Below are positions 2,963 through 36,334 of a stretch of DNA of 64,000 bases, piece by piece (position 1 is the stretch's first letter; each line of letters opens with the position of its first letter). This stretch comes from Candidatus Kuenenia stuttgartensis. GTDB taxonomy: Bacteria > Planctomycetota > Planctomycetia > Planctomycetales > Planctomycetaceae. The DNA lies in contig CAMDPK010000014.1 in the NCBI GenBank assembly GCA_945904015.1, positions 1 through 64,000 on the forward strand, written 5' to 3'. A program made the translations under genes and the position numbers. The notes beneath the pieces were generated by a model. That model saw nothing but the letters and a program-made list of their open reading frames with translations. It searched no databases and was not told where the DNA came from.

Positions 2963-3875
2963 CAGGCATCGTCCATGTCGTCGTGATCGCCATTCGCGTC
3001 GGTTGTGGTCGGAGTCTCTGGCTTCCAGGCGGTTCCCGTCGATGGGCTGGCGGTTGCCGCGATTGGTTGCGGATGGCCTCGGTGCCACCAGCGCATGACC
3101 GATTCGTTCCAAAGTGCTCTCAGCGGCGCACCAAAAGCAAACCAGCAGCAGAACAACGGCACAAACACCTGCGGCATCACAAACACCACGGCCAGCGCGA
3201 AGACGATCTGGATCAAATGCTGCCGAGGACGCCGGCCACGAATCAGTCGATTGACGAGATGCGCGTACCGAATTCGCGAAACCATCAAGCACGCGACCGC
3301 CAAAGTAATGAACGGCAATACGCTGGGAGTCCAGGTATCGAGCCATGTCGCGACGTGTTCCCAAAGCTTGTCATTGGCCGAGTCTTCCAAATGGCGGAAT
3401 CCAAAAGCCATGATTGGAAAACTGGCAACCGTTCCCGCCGCCGCGGGTGATGGCAAGCCGCTGAACGAATCGTGAGCGTCATCCTCGTCGGTTTCGACAT
3501 TGAATCGAGCCAGTCGCAACACCGCGCAGACGACGTACAACGCCGCAATCAGCCAGACGAAGCGGAGGAGCAGAAGATCGTGCGATTGAGAGAATTGCAG
3601 CATTAAAAACGCAGGAGCCGCTCCGAAGCTGATCGCATCGCACAACGAATCGAGCTGCGCCCCGAACTCGCTGGTCTGCTTTGTGAGCCGAGCGGCACTG
3701 CCGTCCAAAGCATCGAACACCATCGCCAAGAAAATCAGGCACGCGGCGATAAACAACGACACCGTCGAATCCCCGACGGACCACTTGGCCGCGATCGTGA
3801 TCGCTCCGAAACCGCAGACCGCGTTGCCCAGCGTCAGCATTGTCGGCAGCACGGCGAAGACTTTTTCGCGACGGC

Positions 3876-30037: not shown

Positions 30038-31612
30038 TTACCCGATGCCCAGCAACTTGCACGCTTCGTCGTAGCCCGGAGCGCGGAAGCCGTGCTTGTC
30101 CAAGCGGTCGTAGGCGAAGGAACTGGCCGTCACGCGAGCGAGAGCCGTCAGCTCACGCCACTTGAATGCCGAACGCATCGTGGCGAATTCTTCGCTGACC
30201 GTGCGGTAGTACTTCTCGGCGTGCAGGCGGCCGTCTTCGCTGATGGCGTACTTGAGCATCAGATCGAAGACGCCTCGCGGGGCGTGGCCGAGTTGGCCGT
30301 AGCGATGGACCGCCGCGCAGGCGAGCGTTTGGTTGTTCTCGCGGATCGCACCCTCGGCTTGCTTGAGGATTGCGGCGGGATCTTCGGTGGTGATCTTTTC
30401 GAGGTGGTCAGCGAACGGCAGCGGTTGCTTGTGCAAGTCGCTCCCTTGCCCGGCCGTGTGATAAGCGCCGACGATCAGGCTCGCGACTGCGTTGCGATGG
30501 TTGCTCGCCTTCGCAATATGCCGCCACGCATTTGCCGAGTCGGACGCATGCACGCCCTTCGAATCGCCGTGCGTACGAGCGGCAGAATCTCGCAAGAGCA
30601 GCGAATTCGCGGCCAGCGAGATCGCTTCACCCACGTCATCCGGAGAAACGCCTTCGGCGAGAGCGGCGGCGACGGCATCGGCGGCTCGTTCGCGGTTTGA
30701 GGTGACGATCGTGTTGCTCATGGATTCGACCCAAGCGTCATCCATGCGGCGAGTGCCGATCGGCTTCGAGACGAGTTGATACTGATCCAACAGCTTCGGC
30801 AGCACGTTGCGGATGTGCGAGATGCTGCTGACGCGAGCCTCGTGCGCCGGCTTGTCTCGGTCGCACTGGTACTTCTCGCTTTGGACGCAATACCGCACCG
30901 ACTGCCGCAGCAAGGTGTGAGCGTGCTCTATGCCGGTCACGTTGAGCGTGTCCCAGGCTCGCCACGCCAGCACGACACGATGCACATCGACCTCGTCCTG
31001 CATCGCGTATTGCAGATGATTGAACGCCTCACCCGGTTGACCCTTGGCGCTGATCGCCGCAAAGGCTTGCTCGGCCGCATCGAAATCGACCTTGCGAGAG
31101 CATTCGCGAACCGTTTCGCCGGTCGGAGCCGCACCGGCCGCCTCAGCAGCGGCGATCTGATGCAGAGTTTCGTGTTCGTGGTCCTGATGGCCCGAATCCT
31201 GAATCCGCCACGTATTGCGGTACAGCACCTTGAGCACCGGCAACGGCCGCTGAGCCTCCGGCAGTTCCTTCGACATGTGCCACGCCGGAACGAGCGCCAT
31301 GAAGGTGTGAAACCCGATGTAATCCTGGCCGCCGAACGCGCGAGCATTCGCCAAAGCCGCCGCCGCGACCAACGTCTTCAGTTCGGTCCCTTTCTGAATC
31401 TCCTTGACGACCACCGGCAACAGCTTGTCCGACGGAGTCTGCTGCATCAGCGACACGAGCGGCTCCAAACTGCCAAAATCCAGCCCCTTCGTGGCCTCGG
31501 CGGCCATTCCGGTCGCCAGCCCCATTTCGGAAGCCAGCGACGATCCCACGCTGGCGAGCAACATGCCCTTGCCCACATCGGCCATAAAATTACGACGGCT
31601 GGTCTGATTCAT
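30038..31612 (-). CDS. Tat-exported protein of unknown function
   Basis: A 524-residue protein with a twin-arginine signal (NQTSRRNFMADVGKGMLLAS) and AGGAG seven bases before the ATG at 31612. The mature part is helical and unusually rich in His (IGFHTFMALVPAWHM, GHQDHEHETLHQI, DVHRVVLAWRAWD, GVHASDSANAWRHIAKASNHRNA). The clusters could bind metal or haem, but I recognise no family and no CxxCH is present. It stands alone, with its own intrinsic terminator downstream. The repeated helical pattern (VVKEIQKGTELKTLVAAAALAN, AADAVAAALAEGVSPDDVGEAI) resembles two tandem halves, which suggests an internal duplication. Confidence 0.75.
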   Translation of the reverse strand: MNQTSRRNFMADVGKGMLLASVGSSLASEMGLATGMAAEATKGLDFGSLEPLVSLMQQTPSDKLLPVVVKEIQKGTELKTLVAAAALANARAFGGQDYIGFHTFMALVPAWHMSKELPEAQRPLPVLKVLYRNTWRIQDSGHQDHEHETLHQIAAAEAAGAAPTGETVRECSRKVDFDAAEQAFAAISAKGQPGEAFNHLQYAMQDEVDVHRVVLAWRAWDTLNVTGIEHAHTLLRQSVRYCVQSEKYQCDRDKPAHEARVSSISHIRNVLPKLLDQYQLVSKPIGTRRMDDAWVESMSNTIVTSNRERAADAVAAALAEGVSPDDVGEAISLAANSLLLRDSAARTHGDSKGVHASDSANAWRHIAKASNHRNAVASLIVGAYHTAGQGSDLHKQPLPFADHLEKITTEDPAAILKQAEGAIRENNQTLACAAVHRYGQLGHAPRGVFDLMLKYAISEDGRLHAEKYYRTVSEEFATMRSAFKWRELTALARVTASSFAYDRLDKHGFRAPGYDEACKLLGIG

Positions 31613-31721: not shown

Positions 31722-32357
31722 CTATTCCACATCCCCCAATTGCCTTCGCAGGCGTTGCAGCACGCGCGATTTGGCGACTCGGATGGTGCCGGATTTCATG
31801 CCGAGTTCGTTGGCGGCTTCGGTGGCGGAGAGGCCATCGACGGTCACTCGCCAGAAGGCTTGCCAGGTTTTGGGATCGAAGTCGTGGCGGATTTTTTCCA
31901 GGCCGCGATGGAACAGCGCGAACTCCGCTAGCCGCTCGTCGTCTTCGCCGTCAGTTGGTTCGCCGTCGCTCGATTCTTCGGAGATGTGCTCCATCTGCAA
32001 TTGATTGCCAGAGCCGCCGATGGCGACAGGGTTGCGATTCAACCGACGGAAGTGGTCAGCCAGCTTGCTGCGCGTGACAGTTCGTAGCCAACCGCGAAAC
32101 GTGTCACCGGAACGATCTTTGCGGAAGCCGTTGATGCCAGTCACGACCGCACGGAAGACTTCTTGCACGACGTCAGGGATGTCTTGCTCGACGATGTTGG
32201 TCTTGCGGCACCAGAAGTAGACCAGCGGGGCGTACAGCTCGACCAATTCGTTCCAGGCAAGGTCGTCCCGATGGCGTGCCCGATCCAACAAGCTCGCGGA
32301 CGTCGGCAGCTTGTCGCCGGACGCTTCCGAAGAGTCGAGTTGTTGAGGCTGTGCCAT
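31722..32357 (-). CDS. ECF-type RNA polymerase sigma factor
   Basis: A 211-residue sigma-70 family protein of ECF type. Region 2 is visible at about 25-95 (LDRARHRDDLAWNELVELY, then EQDIPDVVQEVFRAV and FRGWLRTVTRSKLADHFRR) and region 4 near the C-terminus (GLSATEAANELGMKSGTIRVAKSRVLQRLRRQLG). Between them is an acidic linker (EESSDGEPTDGEDDE). The start MAQPQQLDSS at 32357 was chosen; the open frame extends far upstream but over the kinase. It is the last gene of the amidohydrolase-kinase run. Planctomycete ECF factors of this kind are commonly encoded beside Ser/Thr kinases instead of a classical anti-sigma factor, which fits here. Confidence 0.9.
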   Translation of the reverse strand: MAQPQQLDSSEASGDKLPTSASLLDRARHRDDLAWNELVELYAPLVYFWCRKTNIVEQDIPDVVQEVFRAVVTGINGFRKDRSGDTFRGWLRTVTRSKLADHFRRLNRNPVAIGGSGNQLQMEHISEESSDGEPTDGEDDERLAEFALFHRGLEKIRHDFDPKTWQAFWRVTVDGLSATEAANELGMKSGTIRVAKSRVLQRLRRQLGDVE

Positions 32358-32373
32358 TGGCTTACTCACGAAA

Positions 32374-32498
32374 GTAGCCCTCTCGCTCCGCGAGAGGATA
32401 GCCGAATGGGATGCGGCGCACATTGCGCGGCGGACTTCGAGGAACCATTCCGACCTGATTTTCCAACCGGCTTTCCTCTCGCGGAGCGAGAGGGCTAC
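32374..32498. repeat. REP/BIME-like element between kinase and sigma factor
   Basis: Arms 32374-32398 and 32475-32498 are inverted copies with GTAG feet and inner hairpin CTCTCGC-tcc-GCGAGAG; 76 bases separate them, the longest gap among the elements here. The CTAC foot at 32495-32498 includes the kinase stop codon, and the other arm ends just before the sigma factor start region. It occupies nearly the whole intergenic space and could set relative expression of kinase and sigma factor. Confidence 0.85.
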
Positions 32499-34417
32499 GT
32501 TGAACGCGAGCGAGATCGCATGGCCGCGATGATCGCGAAGCCGGTCAGCAAGAGCACCGCGCTGCCCATCACGACGAACGCGCTTTGCAGGCCGGCTTGA
32601 GTGCGCTCGACGTCCCGATCCAGCGGTCGCGTGATGAGCAACACTCCCACGAGTTCGTTTTCCTTCCAGTCCTTCTTGGGGCTTTGTTTGTGTGCGTTGT
32701 GGCACTTCACGCAGCTTTCTTTCATCAATTGGCCTCGCGCGTATTTCAGCGACGGGCGGCCGTCGATGGTCACGAACCGATGATATTCCAGTTGCTTCGG
32801 CAACGGCGGCTGCCGGGAGCGGTCGGTGAGGATTTTCAAAGCCTCGCGTTGAAAGTCGTCCTTCGGGCCGCCGTTGGCTCGGAAGGGATATTGGCTGTAA
32901 AGCCGGAACTGCAAGCCGGAGTCTCCCTGGCTCATGCGTTGAGCCGAATCGATCGTGAACGTCGCCGGCAGCGGCAGAGCGTTTCGCTTCATCGCGTACT
33001 CGTGCGTGACCGCGATGTCGCGCGTGTCGAGTCGAGTCAGCAAGTCGCTGTAGTACTCGTTGGTCTGTTCCATCATGTCGGCTTCCATGCGAGCGCTGTC
33101 GAGCGCCGTCTCTCGCACGAAGTACGACGAGAGATTCGCGAGATAGACGAACCCCGCCGCCGAGCCAATCGACACGGCTGCGAACAGCGCCGCCGCGACC
33201 GGATATCGCCGACACCAATGCCACAGCCGTTCGGCCGGACCGATGGGCCGAGCGGTGATCGGTTCGCCCGCCAGAAAGCGACGCAGGTCGGCCGCAAGTT
33301 GCGACGCTGTCTGGTAGCGCCGAGCGGGAGACTTCGACATCGCCTTCAGACAAATCGTCTCCAGGTTTTTGGGGACGTGCCGTTCCAATTGCCGAGGCGG
33401 ACGCGGATCGTCTTCGAGCACTTGCAGCAACAGCAGCCGGTGCGTCCCTTGAAACGGCCGCTCGCCGGTCAGCGCTTCGTACAACATCACGCCGAGGCTG
33501 TAGACATCGGTGCGAGCATCAACCGCGTGCAAATCTCCAGCCGCCTGTTCGGGAGACATGTAGGCCGGCGTGCCCATGACTCGGCCGTCCGACGTGATCG
33601 ACGGGTCACCGGAATCATCTCTTTTGGCCAAACCGAAGTCGGTGATGTGTGGTCGGCCGGACTTGTCGAGAATAATGTTCGACGGCTTGAGATCACGATG
33701 CACAATGCCGTGTTCATGAGCGTAATTGACGGCGTCAGCCAACTCGGCGACGAGCGCCGCTGACTCGCGGAATTCCAAGCGGCGTTGTTTGAGCCGCTCT
33801 TGCAGCGTGTCCCCCTCGACGTACTCAGTCACCAGAAAACAGACGCCGTCTTCGGAGTGCCCCGTGTCGAACAGCGACACAATCGCCGGATGCGTGAGTG
33901 CCGCCGCGCTGCGAGCTTCGCGCAAAAAGCGGCCAACTTCTTCTTCGCTGGCGAATGCACCGGCTCGCTGCACTTTGATCGCCACGATGCGGTCGAGCTC
34001 CACATCTCTCGCGCGAAACACATATCCGAACGAACCGACGCCCAACTCGCTGAGCAATTCAAACCGTCCCAGCCGACACGGACCTTCTTTCAACAGCCGC
34101 GCGAAATGCCGCCCCGAATCGAGCGACACTTCCGGTCGCTCGCCGAGCGGCAAACTGGTCACTGCGGTTCGCGCACTGGCGAGGACTGGCTCCGGAGTTT
34201 GTTCAAGATCGCCGGTCTGCGTTGCAGACCTGTGAGCCAACTTCGTGAGCAGTTCGTCGTCGTGCCCGTCGAGTTGATCGAACGACGCTTGGCAGTGCGA
34301 GCAATCCTCGACATGCCGTTCGATCCGCGCGAGCGACGGCGTCGAGAGCTTGCCGACCAGGAAGGCCGAAAGCTCTTGCTCGGTGGGACAAGTCAGCGGT
34401 TCGGCGGGTCGTGTCAC
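32495..34417 (-). CDS. Ser/Thr kinase with zinc-finger start and haem-c DUF3365 sensor
   Basis: A 640-residue membrane kinase from a GTG start. Residues 10-42 carry C10 and H35-x3-C39-x2-C42, the pattern of a zinc-binding anti-sigma-type (ZAS/zf-HC2) domain. The kinase domain starts near 117 (LLSELGVGSFGYVFRARD, VAIKVQ), with HRDLKPSNIIL, DFGLAK and GTPAYMSPEQ. A hydrophobic helix (VAAALFAAVSIGSAAGFVYL) leads to an extracytoplasmic DUF3365/Tll0287-like domain with a c-type haem motif CVKCH at about 567-571, closed by a second helix (FVVMGSAVLLLTGFAII). The layout implies redox or ligand sensing outside, kinase output inside. The start overlaps the upstream amidohydrolase by four bases; an ECF sigma factor follows. 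Confidence 0.9.
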   Translation of the reverse strand: MTRPAEPLTCPTEQELSAFLVGKLSTPSLARIERHVEDCSHCQASFDQLDGHDDELLTKLAHRSATQTGDLEQTPEPVLASARTAVTSLPLGERPEVSLDSGRHFARLLKEGPCRLGRFELLSELGVGSFGYVFRARDVELDRIVAIKVQRAGAFASEEEVGRFLREARSAAALTHPAIVSLFDTGHSEDGVCFLVTEYVEGDTLQERLKQRRLEFRESAALVAELADAVNYAHEHGIVHRDLKPSNIILDKSGRPHITDFGLAKRDDSGDPSITSDGRVMGTPAYMSPEQAAGDLHAVDARTDVYSLGVMLYEALTGERPFQGTHRLLLLQVLEDDPRPPRQLERHVPKNLETICLKAMSKSPARRYQTASQLAADLRRFLAGEPITARPIGPAERLWHWCRRYPVAAALFAAVSIGSAAGFVYLANLSSYFVRETALDSARMEADMMEQTNEYYSDLLTRLDTRDIAVTHEYAMKRNALPLPATFTIDSAQRMSQGDSGLQFRLYSQYPFRANGGPKDDFQREALKILTDRSRQPPLPKQLEYHRFVTIDGRPSLKYARGQLMKESCVKCHNAHKQSPKKDWKENELVGVLLITRPLDRDVERTQAGLQSAFVVMGSAVLLLTGFAIIAAMRSRSRST

Positions 34418-35178
34418 AACATCAGCCTTTCCGCGTTCGAGCTTCGAATCTGTTTGAGGATCGGTTCCGGCAAGCCGCTTTCGACCAGCTTGAGTTCCGC
34501 CGACTCAAAGTAAAACAGCGGCGAATGCGAGCCGAACAGCACACGCTCCGGTGAGACTTGTTCGATGAGCTTCGCGATTCCGGCCACGCTTTCGAGCATC
34601 GCGATGTCGAACCAGACTTGTCCGGCCTTGGCCACTTCCGCAGCCTTCAGGACCGGCAACGAGCGAAACGCATTCAGCAAGACGAGTCGCAGCTTCGGCA
34701 GCTTCGCGATGACTCCGGCCAGCGGCTTCGGATCGACGTGTGGAACAAGATGCAGAGCGTGCTGAGTCCGTTCGTCTTCCATCGACAACACCAGTTGCAC
34801 GATCAAGCCGCGATCTGCCGCGAGCGACAACAACTCGGCGAAGCGCGGATCGTCGAGCGTGTAGCCGTGATAGTTTGGATGCAGGCGAAGGCCCGGCATC
34901 TTGTGAGCTTCGTGGCAACGCCGCAGGTCGTCGTGCCAATCGGGCAGCACAGGATTGACGGTCCCGAATGGTTTCAAAAAGTCGCGGCCGAACTGCTGGC
35001 AAGTCTCAGCCAGCCGCTGATTCACCGCCGCGATGTCGCGATGGAACAGCCCGTCAAAGCTCCCGGCCCACGCCTGCGTCACTCCGCGAGCCTTGAGCTT
35101 GGCAACCAGCCGATCCGGTGCGTCGTCCACGAATCGCCGAAACGGCCAGCGTTCGAGGTTGATGTTGGTGTCGATCAT
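34414..35178 (-). CDS. Amidohydrolase-like TIM-barrel protein
   Basis: A 254-residue cytoplasmic protein of the amidohydrolase-2 (TatD-like/aminocarboxymuconate-decarboxylase-like) superfamily. It begins MIDTNINLERWPFRRF; where active family members have an HxH metal motif near the N-terminus this one has NIN, so metal binding at that site is probably lost. Later segments fit: GLRLHPNYHGY, RFAELLSLAADRGLIVQL, and ERVLFGSHSPLFYFESA at the place of the usual GSDxP/xxH motif. It is likely structural or regulatory, or uses a degenerate metal site. It overlaps the kinase gene by four bases, so its product may act with the kinase. Confidence 0.78.
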   Translation of the reverse strand: MIDTNINLERWPFRRFVDDAPDRLVAKLKARGVTQAWAGSFDGLFHRDIAAVNQRLAETCQQFGRDFLKPFGTVNPVLPDWHDDLRRCHEAHKMPGLRLHPNYHGYTLDDPRFAELLSLAADRGLIVQLVLSMEDERTQHALHLVPHVDPKPLAGVIAKLPKLRLVLLNAFRSLPVLKAAEVAKAGQVWFDIAMLESVAGIAKLIEQVSPERVLFGSHSPLFYFESAELKLVESGLPEPILKQIRSSNAERLML

Positions 35179-35197
35179 GTTGGCCTCGCGAATTGAT

Positions 35198-35307
35198 GAG
35201 TGCAAAGTGCAGAGTGCCGAGTGCAAATTGAAAAATGGAAGGGAGGCAAGCACGACTCATTCGTTTTGATTTTGCACTTTGCATTCTTCACTCTGCACTT
35301 TGCACTG
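35198..35307. repeat. Palindromic element, family gcaaagtgcagagtgc
   Basis: Left arm 35198-35227 and right arm 35271-35307 are inverted, imperfect copies built from GTGCAAA/GTGCAGA words. It separates the two amidohydrolase genes and lacks a GTAG foot at either end, apart from the GTAG at the stop codon of the upstream gene (35319-35322). Confidence 0.75.
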
Positions 35308-35318
35308 CGTTGAGACAG

Positions 35319-36107
35319 CTACTTCTTGGCACGTTGTGCCGCCTCGATCAGCCGCCGCAAGTTCTCTGAAAAGATCATTCGCTTCGCGTCTTCGGAAATG
35401 TCGGCCCCGAAGACCTTCGCCAGTTGTGAGGCGAAGCTGCGTCCCGCGCTGTCGCTGCCGTAGATGATCCGTTCGGGCCCGAGTTCGCGCACGGCCATCT
35501 CGGTGAAGCCGGCGGTTGGATCGGAACCGGCCAGCTCGATCGACACGTTCTTCAACGCTCGAATCGCGCGGATGCCCATTTCCCACTGGCCTCCGGCGTG
35601 GCCGCAAATGAAATGTGTTTGCGGATGTCGCCTCGCGAGCTCCACGAGATCCAGCGGCGTCGACTCGCCGGGGTACTGCGTGCCATCTTGCTTGAACCAA
35701 GTGTGCTGAAAGATGACGGCCTTGAGTTCGCTCGCCTTGCGGATGATCGCGTCGAGGTTGCGTTCGGAAGCCCGCTTCGCGACCCACAGCTTGATGCCGA
35801 CCATCGGGCCGCGCTTGATGCAGCGGTCCATCTCGGCGAGGCTGAACTCGACATGCTCGCCGCTGACGTAGCAGAAGCCGTGCGTCCGATTCGCCCAGTG
35901 CGACATTGCCTGCATGACGACATCGTTGTCGGTCTTGAGTTCTTCGGGCGTCGGCGTCTTCGACCAAGTGCTGCTGAAGAACAGACACAACCGCTCGATG
36001 CCGTGCCGGTCGGCGATTTCCAACAGCGTCGCCATTTTCTCTTCCGGCGTGCGACCGGCGACTCCGAGCAGATGGCAGTGCAAATCCCAGATGCGATATT
36101 GCGGCAT
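35319..36107 (-). CDS. Amidohydrolase family protein (metal motif intact)
   Basis: A 262-residue TIM-barrel hydrolase/decarboxylase-like protein. Unlike its neighbour it keeps the N-terminal metal motif HCH in MPQYRIWDLHCHLLGVAG. Further expected pieces are VGIKLWVAKR (Lys at the barrel strand), FQHTWFK, HFICGHAGG (His for metal) and ERIIYGSDSAGRSF with the Asp near the C-terminus. GAGGAAAA six bases before the ATG at 36107 supports the start. Substrate cannot be predicted. It is first in the minus-strand run amidohydrolase, amidohydrolase, kinase, sigma factor. Confidence 0.85.
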   Translation of the reverse strand: MPQYRIWDLHCHLLGVAGRTPEEKMATLLEIADRHGIERLCLFFSSTWSKTPTPEELKTDNDVVMQAMSHWANRTHGFCYVSGEHVEFSLAEMDRCIKRGPMVGIKLWVAKRASERNLDAIIRKASELKAVIFQHTWFKQDGTQYPGESTPLDLVELARRHPQTHFICGHAGGQWEMGIRAIRALKNVSIELAGSDPTAGFTEMAVRELGPERIIYGSDSAGRSFASQLAKVFGADISEDAKRMIFSENLRRLIEAAQRAKK

Positions 36108-36128
36108 GGTTTTCCTCGCATTGAGAAC

Positions 36129-36216
36129 AAAAACGGTATCACGGCCATCGGCTTTCGGCCAACGGCGACCGGCCGAAAGCCGTGAGCCGAAAGCCGATGG
36201 CCGTGATACCGTTTTT
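36129..36216. repeat. Long palindrome, family aacggtatcacggccatc
   Basis: Two exact inverted 31-base arms, 36129-36159 and 36186-36216, around a 26-base centre that itself contains pairs of ggccgaaagc/gctttcggcc. It lies between divergent genes, so it may sit in the promoter region of one of them. A related single arm is read in frame inside the rluD-like gene at 25548-25595. Confidence 0.88.
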
Positions 36217-36334
36217 CGTCGTTCACCAAATCGTCCAACTGCCCCTTGAAATCGGCCAGCTTGGATCACGACGATACGCACCCTCCGTTGATTTGCCCAC
36301 CGAACACCCCGCCTTCCATCCCACAAGTACGCCC

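Follow-up and report, generated by a model that had tools for sequence, protein, structure and literature searches.

Gene organisation and domain content of the locus

The window, as the whole 64,000-nt stretch of DNA analysed is called here, belongs to a 7.43-Mb planctomycete assembly, and the closest relatives are a Planctomyces sp. (94 % identity) and a member of the Planctomycetales (84 %). Three genes follow one another on the minus strand in the order kinase, ECF sigma factor and Tat-exported protein, the last lying directly after the sigma gene. The kinase open reading frame (32495-34417) encodes a 640-aa Ser/Thr kinase, has a GTG start and shares 4 nt with the end of the Amidohydro_2 protein gene that precedes it (34414-35253, minus strand). 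The latter is the nearer of two Amidohydro_2 genes ahead of the kinase, both on its own strand (34414-36326), and among the loci read such a neighbour of the kinase was present only in the window and in the 94 % relative. Between the kinase and sigma genes lies a 39-nt inverted repeat (32371-32409 and 32463-32501, arms 90 % complementary and 53 nt apart), which resembles a small mobile or repetitive element; no further copy was found within the window, the core of one arm also lies directly after the kinase gene in two other loci (L048 and L070), and a search of the window against Rfam gave no match.

The preliminary description, made from the sequence alone, had read the kinase polypeptide as a zinc cluster, a kinase, a membrane helix, a DUF3365 domain and a second helix, and this architecture was borne out by Pfam and hydropathy. 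The N-terminal zf-HC2 domain (residues 14-43, 25.7 bits, cut-off 22.2) contains the proposed ligands C10, H35, C39 and C42 in the spacing C10-x24-H35-x3-C39-x2-C42 (34292-34390, minus strand), that is, the H-x3-C-x2-C of ZAS-type proteins with an upstream Cys/His ligand, and is matched weakly by the RsrA and ChrR models, far below their curated cut-offs. The motif is kept in the readable main-clade homologues: H35 and C39 occur in 46 of 46 sequences, and C10 in 46 of 47, with His in the remaining one. The Hanks-type kinase domain (residues 120-370, 33308-34060, minus strand; Pkinase 165 bits, above cut-off) has the HRDxKxxN and DFG motifs and the VAIK lysine, its closest solved structure is PknB, and the catalytic residues H240, R241, D242, K244, N247, D260 and G262 are kept in all 58 kinase homologues. 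Exactly two membrane segments, predicted from hydropathy at residues 406-429 (33131-33202) and 608-635 (32513-32596), flank an extracytoplasmic Tll0287-like or sCache_heme domain (PF11845, residues 435-598, 32624-33115, 69.2 bits, cut-off 24.1), in which the haem-c attachment motif CVKCH was confirmed at residues 569-573 (32699-32713), all on the minus strand. For the kinase and the Tat protein, AlphaFold models built from alignments of 3 sequences were of low confidence (pLDDT 32 and 39).

An ECF sigma factor gene had been reported next to the kinase, and it was found there at 32357-31722 on the minus strand, encoding about 211 aa when counted from the first good ATG. The sigma70-ECF superfamily model TIGR02937 matches at 71.3 bits (cut-off 42.9), and Pfam places Sigma70_r2 above its cut-off and the region 4 models below theirs. 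Region 2.2 reads DIPDVVQE in the window, and its acidic [DE]xxD motif (DIPD in the window) is kept in 46 of 46 paired sigma factors. A T-x-x-S-L sequence lies near the N-terminus just before region 2, with T in 45 and S in 40 of the 46 paired sigma factors; the T-x-x-S/T-L form ahead of region 2 is kept in the whole sigma clade, including the paralogues of the window sigma.

Kinase, sigma factor and zinc motif among relatives

PF11845 was detected in 143 of the 170 genomes of the family, and its fusion to a kinase of the window type in 25 of the 170, with further fusions outside the family, elsewhere in the class and phylum. About 60 kinase-fusion loci were collected and their neighbouring genes read, and a tree was made of 58 proteins, 48 of which form the main clade. 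A sigma factor of the window type adjoins 45 of the 48 main-clade kinases, in three arrangements (30 kinase-then-sigma, 11 divergent and 4 sigma-then-kinase); the kinases without one are L058, L190 and L215, the last lying on a truncated contig. When the no-sigma states are included, the gene arrangement has changed at least 8 times on the 58-protein tree. Adjacency has thus survived rearrangement, which argues strongly that the two genes share a function. A functional link between the two genes was part of the preliminary description, with their being unlinked in relatives as the test, and it came through that test; from these comparisons, kinase and sigma factor very probably act together.

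The zinc motif follows the sigma factor as well. In the host genome, 75 kinases were scored for H-x3-C-x2-C at the N-terminus and for an adjoining ECF sigma gene, and all ten with the motif lie beside such a gene, compared with 19 of the 65 without it (Fisher P 2.4e-5). The sigma factors beside these ten kinases are the window sigma and nine of its closest paralogues. The system had initially been regarded as unusual, and this applies to the haem sensor and not to the remainder, a zinc-module kinase beside an ECF sigma gene being common in the host genome (10 cases). Within the haem kinases, L197, L203, L206, L207, L209, L210 and L212 have neither a zinc motif nor an adjacent sigma gene, and the sister kinases L208 and L209 differ simultaneously in both features. 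The association is here supportive and not conclusive, because it comprises just 2 independent evolutionary contrasts.

There is about an even chance, ahead of the alternatives, that the zinc module is the part that holds the sigma factor and that the kinase brings about its release. A rather unlikely alternative is that the kinase switches the sigma factor on by direct phosphorylation, as PknT does with EcfP and PknS with EcfK, with the zinc motif serving merely for docking or structure. Phosphorylation is the mode of the ECF43 pairs, in which region 2.2 no longer has its acidic motif and regains the charge from a phosphothreonine (PMC13147305; PMC8999054); it is also presumed to regulate ECF59, ECF61, ECF62 and ECF217, which include planctomycete examples (PMC8999054), and the conserved T-x-x-S-L is a possible phosphorylation site in the sigma factor studied here. 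Against this, the zinc motif tracks the sigma factor and not kinases generally, and the window sigma retains the very motif that phosphate replaces in ECF43, with no loss of DxxD from region 2.2 and no Thr or Ser in its place. Because [DE]xxD is retained, binding to core polymerase should need no phosphate at region 2.2. Groups other than ECF43 likewise retain a DAED-like motif and possibly use a different mechanism (PMC8999054). The original proposal had offered either phosphorylation of the sigma factor or its release from the zinc domain; release fits the data better, phosphorylation in the ECF43 sense appears unlikely in view of [DE]xxD in 46 of 46 sequences, and phosphorylation at a site outside region 2.2 may occur.

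The Tat-exported protein and the TGTAAC-N7-CGTT element

The third gene (30038-31612, minus strand) encodes a Tat-exported protein of 524 aa, of unknown family, which is a probable regulatory target. Clustering of neighbouring frames showed that a Tat-signal protein of about 525 aa adjoins the pair in 26 other loci in addition to the window, in several orientations. It matched no Pfam family, and the designed repeat protein that a PDB search gave as a match was discounted as uninformative. The protein has six invariant histidines (H102, H211, H348, H355, H385 and H464), and the family carries the motif H-G-x-S-x-G-x-H-x-S-D. The Tat gene is found in most genomes of the family and is more widespread than the kinase and sigma pair, and it is missing from some pair loci despite ample flanks (for example L069, L077 and L090). 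Among its neighbours in 20 genomes without the pair, no common kinase, sigma factor or other regulator was found; in two of the 20, both of one genus, a kinase and sigma pair lies 3 kb away.

Most pair loci have an oriented TGTAAC-N7-CGTT motif ahead of the kinase or the Tat gene. Of the 56 copies that the core pattern gave in the pair loci, 51 lie ahead of a kinase (26) or Tat gene (25), at 39-302 nt from the start codon, and all of these are oriented toward the gene. Positions outside the search pattern show conservation as well (G6 85 %, C7 81 %, A or C at 17 92 %). The first base of the window element lies 92 nt before the start codon of the Tat protein. The strict form TGTAACGCN5CGTT has one copy in the 7.43-Mb host assembly, which is the window element TGTAACGC-N5-CGTT at 31704-31688 on the minus strand (window expectation 0.01), and across 170 genomes it averages 2.2 copies in those with the pair (54 in 25) and 0.4 in the others (59 in 145). 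An RNA hairpin at the TGTAAC element was considered and rejected, since an A at position 6 breaks the base pair without compensation.

An element within 250 nt before the Tat gene was found in 13 of 13 pair-linked cases, in 8 of 18 unlinked cases in pair genomes and in 2 of 68 cases in pairless genomes, the difference between unlinked Tat genes of pair genomes and those of pairless genomes having a P value of 2.9e-5. Some of the unlinked cases may be contig breaks; among the eight, at least that of G076 probably is one. Those of G050 and G057 (two) and the second copy in G079 seem to be genuinely separate from the pair, which would point to control in trans. The window and its two nearest relatives have the element ahead of the Tat gene only, so that autoregulation is not seen in the window. 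Two further occurrences were recorded: Tat genes with the TGTAAC element in G018 (C10:32378) and G045 (C608:9992), in neither of which genomes the pair was found, and a TGTAAC-to-CGTT sequence with a 6-nt gap at position 3805 (minus strand) of L197, upstream of a haem kinase without an adjacent sigma gene.

From the position and distribution of the element, the Tat gene is probably a target of the pair. The circuit had been described as a one-component one, which does not hold, at least three conserved genes and a DNA element being involved. The 7 nt between TGTAAC and CGTT are too short for one sigma factor to touch both as an ordinary -35 and -10 box, and binding of the sigma factor to the element is for that reason given here as a prediction. 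ECF -35 and -10 boxes usually have AAC and CGT, respectively, as their cores (PMC8103513). Some 24 nt ahead of CGTT, a GGGAAA-like block is enriched; it was found, allowing one mismatch at most, at 18 of 52 sites (shuffles: mean 7.8, maximum 13), and is not clearly evident at the window element; where present it would give normal spacing, with CGTT as the -10 box and TGTAAC as an extra element.

The same unusual spacing, together with a core (AACGC/GCGTT) that is partly palindromic, could be taken to mean that another regulator binds TGTAAC-N7-CGTT and is shared by the Tat gene and the pair. This is judged rather improbable, since the copies before kinase and Tat genes are asymmetric and share one direction, the palindrome is broken where position 6 is A, no further regulator gene was seen to be conserved at the loci read, and the element tracks the presence of the pair.

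Probable haem sensing, proposed circuit and comparison with known systems

The CxxCH motif is present in 58 of 58 kinase homologues; like that of the catalytic residues and of the zinc ligands, its conservation far exceeds chance. The haem domain of the window protein has no Cys besides the CxxCH pair, as is the case in most relatives, and the Cys/His ligation of Tll0287 is ruled out in the window protein because the domain is without any other Cys. Searches of PDB sequences did not place the domain on 5B82 or on the Geobacter sensors. Signalling proteins with an sCache_heme domain have been studied experimentally: one without an axial Cys, like the window domain, showed the properties of an NO sensor, with tight NO binding and no stable oxygen complex (PMC12889525), and Geobacter relatives of the domain, which bind NO and CO, undergo a redox-dependent change of ligand (PMC8396549). 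The absence of an axial Cys and the behaviour of these relatives favour NO or redox state as the signal. The window domain fits the NO-binding signalling class, and by analogy NO is at least as likely as redox state to be the kinase signal. Of the redox sensing by haem put forward in the preliminary description, the haem motif was thus confirmed, and redox is not preferred over NO, for which a sensor precedent exists.

It is quite probable that the kinase binds haem c and uses it as input, haem incorporation and the ligand being predicted from the sequence. The domain might instead be vestigial or an electron-transfer module, the kinase sensing something else, a reading suggested by the stand-alone occurrence of about half of the sCache_heme domains and by the redox-like properties of the stand-alone domain tested (PMC12889525). 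This is very unlikely, given the invariant CxxCH of the fusions, the membrane helices that connect the domain with a signalling enzyme, and the occurrence of the domain on a second kinase and sigma type. The latter is seen in L060 (1065-2987) and L211 (4198-6090), where the haem sensor is joined to a different kinase type without a zinc motif, behind a different sigma type, an independent capture of the sensor. Haem-c Cache domains were also observed in two further large proteins of the host genome (open frames of 862 and 1244 aa) at G000:C14:72384-73004, just past the window, and at G000:C5:72047-72634, and no Hanks kinase domain was detected in either protein.

Taken in outline, a haem-gated circuit is slightly favoured, in which sequestration of the sigma factor, the phosphorylation step, recognition of the motif by the sigma factor and the direction in which regulation runs are all predicted. 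The extracytoplasmic sCache_heme domain would carry a covalent c-type haem, the ligation of which would shift with NO or redox state, and this shift would reach the kinase domain in the cytoplasm by way of the membrane helices. In the resting state, the ECF sigma factor would be held by the zinc module at the N-terminus of its partner kinase, much as by a ZAS anti-sigma factor; the signal would activate the kinase, through autophosphorylation or phosphorylation of the sigma factor, and the sigma factor would be released. The free sigma factor would then transcribe from TGTAAC-N7-CGTT-type sites, serving the Tat gene and, as feedback in the relatives, the kinase operon too.

The window protein shares with the sCache_heme signalling proteins an extracytoplasmic CxxCH Cache domain joined by membrane helices to an output, and differs from them in that the sensor is C-terminal to the output and in that the output is a Ser/Thr kinase, the outputs named for that group being histidine kinases, MCPs, GGDEF/EAL proteins and cyclases (PMC12889525); the words serine, protein kinase and sigma are absent from the text of that paper. 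Like the EcfP-PknT and EcfK-PknS pairs of ECF43, the locus encodes a membrane Hanks kinase beside an ECF sigma factor, but the sigma factor keeps the [DE]xxD of region 2.2 and the kinase adds a zinc module and a haem sensor. The planctomycete groups ECF59, ECF61, ECF62 and ECF217, likened here by their description, share with the window the phylum and the gene pairing (PMC8999054), and descriptions of a haem sensor, a Tat partner or a DNA element in these groups were not found in the literature examined. The H-x3-C-x2-C zinc motif is common to the ZAS anti-sigma factors RsrA, ChrR and RshA and to the window kinase, in which the module is fused to a kinase, whereas in ZAS systems it belongs to a small or classical membrane anti-sigma factor. 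The full combination of parts was not found in the literature examined. Taken singly, the parts all have known relatives, and the combination appears to be a variety of the planctomycete ECF-kinase pair. That a kinase gated by covalent haem c acts as sensor, kinase and anti-sigma factor in one protein, with a very small dedicated regulon marked by a non-standard bipartite element, is proposed tentatively.

By what mechanism an ECF sigma factor and its kinase operate in planctomycetes is still an open question for the ECF field, the pairs being presumed to be regulated by phosphorylation and yet, in the groups other than ECF43, keeping the core-binding motif for which phosphate is meant to substitute (PMC8999054). 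The zinc module, which in the host genome occurs only on kinases beside such sigma factors, offers a testable answer for the mechanism of the pair. As far as the literature examined shows, a Ser/Thr kinase with a sigma factor would be a new output for the newly defined haem-c Cache sensors, and a single locus supplies a probable input (NO or redox), a switch and a target gene.
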